Shown in pieces: positions 47,080 to 50,110 of a stretch of DNA of 64,000 nt. A program made the position numbers and the translations under genes. The stretch comes from Rothia dentocariosa ATCC 17931 (lineage in GTDB: Bacteria > Actinomycetota > Actinomycetes > Actinomycetales > Micrococcaceae), in the NCBI RefSeq assembly GCF_000164695.2, contig NC_014643.1:2232001-2296000 (forward strand), written 5' to 3'. Numbering within the stretch: position 1 is the stretch's first letter; the number at the start of each line of letters is the position of its first letter. The notes beneath the pieces are model-generated. The model ran no database searches, was not told the DNA's origin, and saw nothing but the letters and a program-made list of their open reading frames with translations.

Positions 47080-48258
47080 TTACATGTTGGGCCAGGTCGG
47101 GTGCAACCGACCCTCACTATCCCCCACCCCCACATCATCCAAATGCCACCGCTGACCCGTATACACATCCACCTTACGCAACTGCGGATTCGGATTCCCA
47201 ACATCAGGCTCATCCGCATGCCCTGGACACCCCTTCGCCCCCGGATCCTCAGTACAAGTCTTACCCACCGAATGCACCTCAGACTCCCACACCCGCACCA
47301 GCACCGGCTCACTAACACGAGACACCTCGGTTCCGAAAAACTGCCACGGCCCACCATCAATACTGTACTGACCCGCATACGTCACCGTGACATAGGCATG
47401 AAAATTCCCCACCTGCGGATACGCATAACTCGTCGACGTCTCCTTCACCCCCGAAGAGGAGGAAGTGGTGGTACTACTGCTGCTGCTTCGGGGTGTACCA
47501 GCTTGATGAGTTCTCAGCTCCTGCCCGTCTCCGTACTCATACCGGTACGCCACCGGTACCGCCCGAATCCTGGTACGTCCAATCGGTAAGTCCCCTTCAA
47601 ATAAGTTGGAACTGCCTTCTAGAGTGGTGTAGAAATTCGTTTCCTCACCCTTGCTCGTGTGTGGCGGATGCGCACTATCCAGGGTCAGGTGCGGATGTGC
47701 CGGGATCAGCTCCAGCAAATGGGTGCGCATCTCGGTGATAATCCGCTCATACTCACCCTGGGCTTGCTGTGCTGCTTCCGGGTCGTTCAGGGTGCAGGTA
47801 TCACCGAACAGATGATTCGTAATCGTCTCCCCGACAGGTTTAGCCTGACCATCATCAGTAAATTCTTTATACTGGCCCACACGCCCATCCCGACTAACAC
47901 AGTACGAACCATCATTTGCAACATCAAATCTAAATGACTTATGAGCACCACTTTTATCTTGAGCGAACCCAAGATTCCCATGATGATGCTCCCGATACCA
48001 TCTCGTCCACTCATCTTGCCGACGTTCATTATTTTCCTGAGACGTGTGCAGATCGGCATTTGGATACTGTCCTATATTTTGCTCTGGCGCTTGTCCCCCG
48101 CCGCGCCACTGTTGACTTTGAGATATCTCCTGCTCTGAACACCATAGTGAAGCATCCGAATTACCGCAGAGAGGATCACCCATAACCGGAACACTTTGAA
48201 AAAGTGAGGCACATACCAATGATGCAATCATTAGGCATGGAAGAGCTCTATTCTTCAT
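47080..48258 (-). CDS. Secreted hypothetical protein with a PKD-like C-terminal region
   Basis: 392 residues. Signal peptide MKNRALPCLMIASLVCASLFQSVPVMG, then a Gln/Glu/His-rich region, a Cys-containing middle, a Ser/Thr linker (SSSSSTTTSSSSG) inserted in a PKD-like beta domain (AYRYEYGDG... SYAYPQVGNFHAYVTVTYAG), and a Cys-bearing end (GKTCTEDPGAKGCPG). PKD-like domains often mediate surface binding; this is a structural guess. The ATG at 48258 has AAGGG eight bases upstream and overlaps the end of the lipoprotein gene by 11 bases, so both are probably made together. No anchor motif is visible. Confidence 0.72.
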   Translation of the reverse strand: MKNRALPCLMIASLVCASLFQSVPVMGDPLCGNSDASLWCSEQEISQSQQWRGGGQAPEQNIGQYPNADLHTSQENNERRQDEWTRWYREHHHGNLGFAQDKSGAHKSFRFDVANDGSYCVSRDGRVGQYKEFTDDGQAKPVGETITNHLFGDTCTLNDPEAAQQAQGEYERIITEMRTHLLELIPAHPHLTLDSAHPPHTSKGEETNFYTTLEGSSNLFEGDLPIGRTRIRAVPVAYRYEYGDGQELRTHQAGTPRSSSSSTTTSSSSGVKETSTSYAYPQVGNFHAYVTVTYAGQYSIDGGPWQFFGTEVSRVSEPVLVRVWESEVHSVGKTCTEDPGAKGCPGHADEPDVGNPNPQLRKVDVYTGQRWHLDDVGVGDSEGRLHPTWPNM

Positions 48259-49000
48259 TCTTCTCACCCTTCATATCCAAGAACTCAACGCTATCGATAA
48301 GCCACCGATTCCCATCATGGTGAAGAGTCATCATATACCAGTTATTCTCGTAATCTTTATTAACAACTTCCTTATAGTGCTCTCCATCAGCCTCAATATA
48401 GATGAGATGTGGCCAAGCCATGAAGAACTTCCACTTATATTTACCACCACCGTGGTTAATAGGCTCACCATGGAACTCGTAGCCATGCACATCTCCGCCT
48501 ACAATCCACCCACCCTTTTTATAAAGACGAGTATCAAAATCATAGGTCTTCTGTTCATCTGTGAAGTTCTTACTGATAAATTTATAGGCCTCTTTGAAGT
48601 CCCCAGTCTGAAGCCCGTAGTTACGCCATTCCGTCCAGGCTTTTACCGACTTAGTCATCCCTTCTAAGGAAGCGTTCGTATACCCCTCCTCCGTCTTCGG
48701 TTTCGGGACATTCTGCGCAGGACCATACACATCAGCGGCGCGGAATTCTCCATCTGGTGCTTTCGAGTTCCCCGAATAATGCTGTGGCGCACTCGACGAC
48801 GGCGACGGATTCTCACTTGAGGAAACAGAAGCAGAACTGGAAGCATCAGCACTTTCCGCACTAGAAGAACTCGGGCTCTCAACAGACGTTCCAGCTGGTT
48901 TTGCATCTTCCCCACACGCAGATAACAACACAGCAAACCCAGAAACGCCCAAAGCACTCATAAGGGCACGACGAGACAAAACAGGGATACGAGTATTCAT
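48248..49000 (-). CDS. Lipoprotein with a twin-arginine-like signal, possibly DUF6318-like
   Basis: 250 residues. The signal (LSRRALMSALGVSGFAVLLSAC) has a twin Arg and a lipobox LSAC. A Ser/Ala/Pro-rich linker of about 60 residues leads to a folded domain (YTNASLEGMTKSVKAWTEWRNYGLQTGDFKEAYKFIS, then a beta-rich part with many aromatic residues). The build is like actinobacterial DUF6318 lipoproteins and the lipoprotein at 33660-34538. The ATG at 49000 is the natural signal-peptide start; upstream in-frame codons are not. It is the first gene of a two-gene operon with the secreted PKD-like protein. Confidence 0.72.
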   Translation of the reverse strand: MNTRIPVLSRRALMSALGVSGFAVLLSACGEDAKPAGTSVESPSSSSAESADASSSASVSSSENPSPSSSAPQHYSGNSKAPDGEFRAADVYGPAQNVPKPKTEEGYTNASLEGMTKSVKAWTEWRNYGLQTGDFKEAYKFISKNFTDEQKTYDFDTRLYKKGGWIVGGDVHGYEFHGEPINHGGGKYKWKFFMAWPHLIYIEADGEHYKEVVNKDYENNWYMMTLHHDGNRWLIDSVEFLDMKGEKNEE

Positions 49001-49343
49001 CGATGAACAACACATCCTCAAAATAATTGTGGCTGGGTGAATAAGATAAGACCAATTCTGAAAACCACACGTTCCATGCGCCATTCCTCCAATGGAACAG
49101 CTTATTCGCACGTACTAAATGGAATCAGAAGAAGTCATATCTATTACTCTACGATGATTCAAAATATTTAGCGATTTACCCTCGACATATATAACCATTT
49201 ATTAATAAACAACTCTGTGGATTTTATTCAAAACATTAAAGATATTAGACTTTCGAGTTTACATTTAAAAACTCAACTTCCACACAGAACTACCCCTAAG
49301 AATTGCACCTATACATTTTGAATAGAACAGAGACCCTTATACA
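49001..49343. other. Promoter region of the lipoprotein operon
   Basis: About 340 AT-rich bases, especially 49130-49330, between the lipoprotein start and the metallothionein terminator. It should hold the operon promoter on the minus strand. No gene or repeat was seen. Confidence 0.4.
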
Positions 49344-49386
49344 AAACCCGCCCGGCGTCTCCTCATAGAGTACGCCGGGCGGGTTT
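49344..49386 (-). terminator. Terminator of the metallothionein-like gene
   Basis: AAACCCGCCCGGCGT pairs exactly with ACGCCGGGCGGGTTT around a 13-base loop, 16 bases after the stop, followed on the minus strand by a T-tract (GGGTTTTGT). Confidence 0.93.
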
Positions 49387-49402: not shown

Positions 49403-49726
49403 TTATGCTGCGTGCTGGCATGTGGGGCATGCGCAGTCATCACATGCGCAGTTGGCGCAAGAATCATTGCAGTGTGCGCATTCGCAAACCGCATGGTTAC
49501 AGGTCGGGCAGGTGCAGTTATCACAGGTGCAGTTTACGCACAGGTCAGAGCAGTTGCCGCAGGAGCATGCGTTGCACTCATCGTAGTGTCCTTCGTGCTC
49601 GCGGTGTGCGTGCCCGTCATGCAGGTAGTCTACGTGATCTAAGTGAATGACTGCCTGGTGACCACATGTAGGTCCGTGGGTATGTGCATGGCTTTCGGAA
49701 TGACGGTGGGGTGCAACGGTGGTCAT
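49403..49726 (-). CDS. His- and Cys-rich metallothionein-like metal-binding protein
   Basis: 107 residues with 20 Cys and 16 His. Residues 1-50 are His-rich (HTHGPTCGHQAVIH, HVDYLHDGHAHREHEGHYDE), resembling a small actinobacterial family usually lacking the Cys tail. Residues 51-107 are a Cys-rich tail with a duplicated 16-residue unit, CxNCxCDxCxCPTCxH, at 63-78 and 90-105. No aromatic residue occurs in the tail, and most Cys are in CxC or CxxC pairs, as in metallothioneins. The likely role is binding and buffering Zn(II) or other soft metals in the cytoplasm. GAGGAGAG precedes the ATG. It lies 23 bases downstream of the SmtB-type gene and shares its promoter. Confidence 0.88.
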   Translation of the reverse strand: MTTVAPHRHSESHAHTHGPTCGHQAVIHLDHVDYLHDGHAHREHEGHYDECNACSCGNCSDLCVNCTCDNCTCPTCNHAVCECAHCNDSCANCACDDCACPTCQHAA

Positions 49727-49749
49727 GATCTCTCCTCAGATAAACCGAG

Positions 49750-50073
49750 CTAATCGCCGGTGTGTTTCGTGTGTTCGTGCACATCCTTCACAATGTGACT
49801 GATGTGGTGGTCTAACAATTTGTAGATAGTGGTTCTGCCGTGCTGCTCCCCTTCAACAACATGCGCCTCTCGAAGGATGCGCAAATGATGCGAGGCGAGC
49901 GGCTGCGAAATACCCAAGCAGGTATGCAGTTCGCTCACACTATGTGGACGCTCCACCAAATGGTGTGCAATCGCAAGTCTTAACGGATTGGCGAGTGCTG
50001 AGAAAATTGCTACGGATGCACCGAATTCTTGTTCCCAGTCTCGTGGTTCCGTCTGACCTGAACCCTTATCCAT
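49750..50073 (-). CDS. ArsR/SmtB-family zinc-responsive repressor
   Basis: 107 residues, winged helix-turn-helix (FSALANPLRLAIAHHLVE, SVSELHTCLGISQPLASHHLRILREAHVV, GRTTIYKL). The last helix has Asp88-x-His90, His101 and His104, i.e. D-x-H-x10-H-x2-H, exactly the alpha-5 metal site motif of SmtB/CzrA zinc sensors; there is no ELCVCD-type Cys site in alpha-3. It should repress its own operon and release DNA on binding Zn(II) (or Co). The start at 50073 is chosen over 50079 because the -10 box would put the transcript start at about 50074-50076. The partner gene encodes a metallothionein-like protein. Confidence 0.9.
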   Translation of the reverse strand: MDKGSGQTEPRDWEQEFGASVAIFSALANPLRLAIAHHLVERPHSVSELHTCLGISQPLASHHLRILREAHVVEGEQHGRTTIYKLLDHHISHIVKDVHEHTKHTGD

Positions 50074-50080
50074 AAACATA

Positions 50081-50110
50081 ATTTTATATAAACGCCTTTT
50101 TATAGGTCAA
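50081..50110 (-). promoter_or_regulatory. Promoter and candidate operator of the SmtB/metallothionein operon
   Basis: On the minus strand TTGACC (50110-50105) is followed after 16 bases by TATAAA (50088-50083), or after 18 by TAAAAT (50086-50081). Both place the transcript start within one to three bases of the ATG at 50073, so the mRNA is probably leaderless; no Shine-Dalgarno sequence is visible. An imperfect inverted repeat TATAAA-N6-TTTATA (50087-50104) overlaps the spacer and -10 box, a suitable place for a repressor. Boxes are by eye only. Confidence 0.6.

Follow-up and report, generated by a model that had tools for sequence, protein, structure and literature searches.

The window analysed here, a 64,000-nucleotide stretch of DNA from Rothia dentocariosa ATCC 17931, contains a gene for an ArsR/SmtB-family repressor and, 23 bp downstream on the same strand, a gene for a 107-residue protein that joins a His-rich module to a duplicated Cys-rich unit. 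Judged from sequence, the pair is probably a zinc-induced, SmtB-controlled metallothionein operon, the actinobacterial counterpart of cyanobacterial smtB-smtA, and it is possibly responsive to cadmium as well. The 107-residue protein is most likely a zinc-storing metallothionein of an unnamed type that occurs in many actinobacteria. The features of the locus are collected in Table 1.

Table 1. Features of the putative arsR-metallothionein operon, in window coordinates
Feature	Position	Strand	Basis
Promoter-like TTGACC-N18-TAAAAT	50081..50110	-	consensus match only
Palindromic operator candidate, 32 bp, over the -10 box; its right end takes in the first two bases of the proposed arsR start codon	50072..50103	-	
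ArsR/SmtB-family repressor, alpha5 motif DHHISHIVKDVHEHTKH	49750..50079	-	profile matches, relatives
Shine-Dalgarno-like AGGAGA before the metallothionein start	49731..49736	-	read from sequence
His/Cys metallothionein-like protein, 107 aa	49403..49726	-	ORF and relatives
His-rich module, residues 1-50, 13 His and 1 Cys	49577..49726	-	
Cys unit 1, residues 54-78, 9 Cys and His78; preceded by Cys51	49493..49567	-	
Cys unit 2, residues 81-105, 9 Cys and His105; 27 residues after unit 1	49412..49486	-	
Terminator-like perfect 15-base inverted repeat behind the operon, with GC-rich stem, 13-base loop and short T run	49344..49386	-	

The initial annotation had described the ORF as a His-rich half followed by a 57-residue tail with 19 of the 20 Cys residues, and a recount showed this to be correct. 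The protein contains 20 Cys and 16 His residues in total, with 19 Cys and 3 His in the tail (residues 51-107), and its only aromatic residues are Tyr34 and Tyr48. The motif CxNCxCDxCxCPTCxH, which had been reported to occur twice in the tail, is indeed present in both copies (residues 63-78 and 90-105), but this 16-residue unit proved to be only the second part of a longer tandem repeat of 25 residues (9 Cys and 1 His) that recurs every 27 residues. At this offset the two copies, residues 54-78 and 81-105, form a gap-free alignment, with 16 of the 30 overlapping positions identical and 9 of them Cys, and this level of identity was matched in 1 of 20,000 shuffles of the tail when any offset from 15 to 34 was allowed. 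The protein is thus small and very Cys-rich, with CxC and CxxC motifs, few aromatic residues and conserved Cys, as is characteristic of metallothioneins as a class. No model in Pfam or NCBIfam (E ≤ 1) or in PHROGs (E ≤ 1) matched it, and a PDB profile search (E ≤ 10) returned no metallothionein and two weak matches, both to synaptotagmin-like protein 4 (best E 0.23); in the Pfam/NCBIfam and PDB profile searches the protein therefore falls outside the SmtA/BmtA-type families by sequence. The AlphaFold model was poor (mean pLDDT 67.7), and the structure model found no fold match in the PDB at E ≤ 0.001.

Conservation of the potential metal ligands was assessed in an alignment of 60 of the 81 available sequences. 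Every sequence retains 18 of the 20 Cys residues, and each of the other two occurs in 59 of the 60; His78 is kept in all 60 and His105 in 59, with one gap. The Cys and His positions of the tail are kept while most of its remaining positions vary. Since these ligands are conserved across many genera, the ORF is genuine, and a chance or false ORF was ruled out. The metallothionein-like reading of the initial annotation is supported both by the conserved Cys and by the adjacent SmtB-type regulator, which the annotation had not mentioned. The conserved His beside the Cys residues and the metal-sensor-type partner gene also speak against the idea that the protein is a thiol/redox buffer that binds no metal in the cell. 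PmtA, a bacterial metallothionein reported to act in oxidative stress management, would be a precedent for such a role; against the His ligands and the partner gene, we regard a metal-free buffer as highly improbable.

The initial annotation knew of no protein that combines such a His half with a duplicated Cys unit. In fact this combination marks a recurrent actinobacterial family, with 364 relatives in a scan of named genomes. The best 80 of the 364 by similarity to the full-length query, hereafter the 80 named loci, belong without exception to actinobacteria (Rothia, Actinomyces, Nocardioides, Cutibacterium, Kutzneria, Lentzea, Streptomyces, Alloscardovia, Dietzia and other genera), and each has both halves, with 19-22 Cys. 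Because it was ranked against the full-length query, this set is biased towards full fusions, and draws of genomes from the phylum and the class give a fairer estimate of prevalence. In the phylum-wide draw, which scored at most 12 candidates per genome, a match was found in 43 of 396 genomes. Two of the 43 matched the whole query, one of them the window's own genome; a third, G073, has a version with one Cys unit; and 40 matched no further than residue 67, essentially the His half. At least two matches, frequently adjacent to each other, were present in 31 of these 40. A profile of the tail alone matched 14 of 394 genomes of the class, the window's genome included, and the His half preceded the Cys tail in the same frame in all 14 (two Cys units in 13 genomes, a single one in the fourteenth). 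A tail-only protein search yielded no candidate, and in the searches made the Cys tail was not found in any already described family of other function. When the halves were searched separately in these genome draws, as had been proposed, the tail lay behind a His half in every case (14/14), and the His half mostly lacked a tail (40/43 genomes). This distribution suggests that the more widespread His module may also be the more ancient part, to which the Cys tail was added.

A protein search gave 33 relatives at E ≤ 0.01, among them full fusions, versions with one Cys unit (for example P0013, P0016, P0019 and, with the unit shortened, P0021), and tandem His modules without a Cys tail. P0017 is a single in-frame chain of an ArsR, a His module and one Cys unit. 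At another locus (L108, genome G073) the His module ends in DEH, as in tail-less modules, and a single Cys unit follows directly; this ending together with the one unit gives L108 the look of an evolutionary intermediate. In the records seen, named relatives are annotated as 'hypothetical protein'.

The partner repressor contains an HTH_5 domain (PF01022, 39.8 bits against a cut-off of 22; NF033788, 80 bits against a cut-off of 55), and its closest solved relatives in the PDB are an ArsR-family protein (8qkf), NmtR, SmtB and CzrA-type repressors. Comparison with relatives suggests that arsR starts at the third codon (50073). An ArsR gene lies directly upstream of the metallothionein gene in all 8 full-length loci of the genus, the window's own counted. 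In an HMM scan of the 80 named loci, 35 had an ArsR gene directly upstream and 13 had one downstream, in both groups on the same strand as the metallothionein gene, and 3 had a convergent one (L062 among them); in the remaining 29 none was found in the fetched flanks, which extend up to 3 kb and end sooner on some contigs, so the coupling of ArsR and metallothionein is not universal. The genes overlap by 17 nt in 14 of the 35 upstream loci and by 4 nt in 8, as counted from script-chosen starts. In L040 and 12 similar loci the metallothionein gene lies about 0.7-1.6 kb upstream of the ArsR gene on the same strand. A FUR-family gene stands right behind ArsR in L040, and its BLAST cluster has members in 18 loci (the L040 member was the one scanned); two zinc regulators may therefore share the locus in this smtB-zur-like arrangement.

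The alpha5 motif DxH-x10-H-x2-[E/H] was found in 50 of the 51 associated ArsR proteins, and its final residue is His in the window's repressor. The one protein without it is encoded by the R. aeria gene (L018, AP017895.1, about 2688-2992), where the arsR beside the metallothionein is split by a frameshift in the record. As a small control, the one other clear ArsR-like protein found in the genome (L105) was inspected and lacks the motif; two further HTH_5 places exist. In PMC8790569, the alpha5 signature of an SmtB-like regulator of a cyanobacterial metallothionein is given as DxHx10Hx2E, and Zn, Cu, Co and Ni are named as metals sensed by the alpha5 group; the motif alone therefore leaves the choice of metal open.

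The region upstream of arsR contains a candidate operator. A palindromic motif search in arsR upstream regions, using 30 of 36 regions (six were dropped because the anchor pattern was unmatched) and forcing one site per region, returned a 32-bp palindrome with the consensus ATnAAnAnATnTTTATATAAAnATnTnTTnAT. The palindromic model reached a log-likelihood of 414 with 60 random starts, compared with about 52 in three mononucleotide-shuffled controls run with 15 starts, and 25 of the 30 sites scored at least 14, the other five being weak. Over all 30 sites the two arms paired at 296 of 480 positions, compared with 247.7 ± 9.1 when arms were re-dealt among loci (0 of 10,000 as high), a statistic that GC differences between genomes and shared ancestry can inflate. 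Pairing was weaker in two inner blocks (185 and 428 of 10,000 as high), and part of the palindrome signal is the TATA core of the promoter itself. In a whole-genome scan allowing up to three mismatches, the palindrome occurred at the arsR promoter (0 mismatches) and at one other place (three mismatches); being nearly unique in the genome, it suggests that the repressor may be dedicated to its own operon. In loci without a directly upstream ArsR, 26 of 44 scored regions (of 45; one was too short) had the model's best place no more than 250 nt ahead of the metallothionein gene, many with weak or negative scores, which is only suggestive of an operator role there.

The promoter-like element in Table 1 is one of 2 such consensus matches in the region, compared with 1.3 expected in shuffled sequence. 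Only 7 nt separate its -10 hexamer from the proposed arsR ATG, and for this reason the arsR-metallothionein mRNA may be leaderless. At the other end of the operon, a terminator scan of the region with a loop limit of 8 listed none; the loop of the inverted repeat in Table 1 exceeds this limit.

These elements suggest how the operon could work. At low free zinc, an ArsR/SmtB dimer would occupy the palindrome, covering the -10 box and the start codon of arsR itself, and keep transcription blocked. Once zinc is in excess and loads the alpha5 site (Asp, His, His, His/Glu), the dimer would leave the DNA, and repressor and metallothionein would then be made from one mRNA. The Cys tail is predicted to form two thiolate clusters, each of about 9-10 Cys and one His and each plausibly holding 3-4 Zn, and the His-rich half would contribute weaker and faster zinc sites, the protein as a whole serving as a zinc buffer or store.

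Further indications of the metal come from the His module in other proteins. It forms the C-terminal end of the ZnuB-like ABC-3 permeases L116 and L126, of which L126 sits between an ABC ATPase and a FUR-family gene. It also lies behind a FUR domain in P0028 and behind an ABC-3 permease in P0029, both confirmed by domain scan. Four of the nine plasmid records with a match to the module carry the label 'zinc transporter permease'. These small His-rich records have the same His module as residues 1-50 but differ in having no Cys tail, as the match stops at residue 50, and the label is probably a carry-over from ABC-3 permeases that end in the module. A module common to zinc-importer-type permeases and a Fur-family protein offers a concrete hypothesis for the passage of zinc from importer to sensor to store.

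The same observations could be taken to mean that the protein works in zinc supply, as a chaperone or store, and not in detoxification, its His module docking with partners and passing zinc between transporter, sensor and Cys store. The C-terminal position of the module in ABC-3 permeases, its place behind the FUR domain in P0028 and the fact that the Cys tail was not found without it (14/14) agree with such a role; the ArsR/SmtB-type partner does not, since repressors of this type are normally released by excess metal, and we consider a supply function distinctly unlikely. In a broader proposal, the His module would be a general actinobacterial docking or hand-off domain for zinc, fused or linked to an importer (ABC-3 permease), to a sensor (Fur/Zur family, SmtB) and, in the window protein, to two Cys units that act as a vault. 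That protein would then be a two-stage zinc depot: a high-capacity store for about 6-8 Zn, under its own SmtB-type switch, and a fast His arm through which metal is exchanged with transporter or sensor. We put this forward tentatively, as a rather unlikely elaboration of the zinc-storing metallothionein.

The remaining alternative concerns the metal itself: the product could be a copper(I)-thiolate protein like mycobacterial MymT that buffers copper, with a His half that binds Cu(II). Cys-rich clusters with CxC and CxxC motifs, as in the tail, are good Cu(I) binders, and MymT is an actinobacterial precedent; however, SmtB, NmtR and CzrA, which the partner regulator resembles, are best known as Zn, Co and Ni sensors. 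The alpha5 sensors do include Cu among their metals (PMC8790569), but the His module ends ABC-3 permeases and lies behind a FUR domain, and no copper family was found among the eight window proteins scanned. Copper buffering is accordingly an improbable role for the protein. The sensor type, the Cys9His unit and the permeases ending in the His module instead point to zinc, although none of these supports amounts to proof.

The genomic setting was examined for metal functions and for signs of mobility. The other scanned neighbours (an FAA hydrolase, a DUF6318 protein, a lipoyl-ligase-like protein, a sodium:sulfate symporter-family protein, an FAD oxidase and a 395-residue protein without match) have no evident metal link. 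Two adjacent minus-strand genes lie beside the operon at 47080-49111, encoding the DUF6318 protein and the 395-residue protein, the latter matched by no Pfam family at E ≤ 1. In all 7 Rothia loci checked, the arsR-metallothionein pair has one or more of the window neighbours beside it (the FAA hydrolase in five, the FAD oxidase in two), and the orientation of the pair relative to the FAA hydrolase differs from that in the window in L020, L021 and L043, for example. In plasmids, phages and viral contigs no match extends past residue 60 or covers more than half of the query, and the 5.4-kb neighbourhood had no near match among plasmids. The partial mobile-element matches and the conserved Rothia neighbours rule against a mobile origin; on the same grounds the gene looks to have been inherited within Rothia, with losses. 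Of 35 genomes of the genus, 12 gave a match, which in 8 is the full-length fusion; in the closest named relative, R. aeria, the metallothionein is 89% identical and the neighbouring FAD-linked oxidase 97.6%.

Predictions of this kind have been made in the same phylum before. Schmidt et al. reportedly predicted metallothioneins and metallohistins in actinobacteria in 2010. A Frankia paper (PMC4531530) cites that work and itself mentions a candidate metallothionein that has several His and 3 or 4 CXXC motifs; the window protein resembles these candidates in phylum and in kind of prediction, and its family may already be listed in the 2010 paper. In the open-licence literature, no paper describing the fusion of His half and Cys tail was found.

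MymT of mycobacteria, by its usual description, is actinobacterial and Cys-rich like the window protein but is a short, copper-binding metallothionein with no His half. The Cys9His2 ligand set of SmtA resembles one window unit (9 Cys and 1 His), whereas the window protein has two such units in tandem and a 50-residue His half, and no sequence relation to SmtA emerged in the searches made. Synechococcus SmtA binds 4 Zn (PMC10612145). In cyanobacterial smtB-smtA and AzuR-NmtA, as described in PMC8790569, an alpha5-type SmtB/ArsR repressor is combined with a small Cys/His metal-binding protein and a promoter palindrome, as it would be in the window, and in Anabaena the regulator lies far from nmtA. 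The window system differs from these in the separate His-rich half and duplicated Cys unit of its protein, in its two co-directional genes and in an operator candidate that covers the -10 box and the arsR start; operators of the smtB-smtA type are 12-2-12 inverted repeats at the metallothionein promoter, and the promoter in the window has the recurrent 32-bp palindrome modelled from arsR upstream regions. With a doubled Cys9His unit behind a His-rich module, these proteins form a recurrent actinobacterial metallothionein-like family that no Pfam or NCBIfam model covers. A single operon that brings its own repressor and a recurrent operator candidate allows a direct test of zinc storage in many actinobacteria, oral commensals included. 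The family looks to work like smtB-smtA, though by sequence it matched no known metallothionein family in the searches made.
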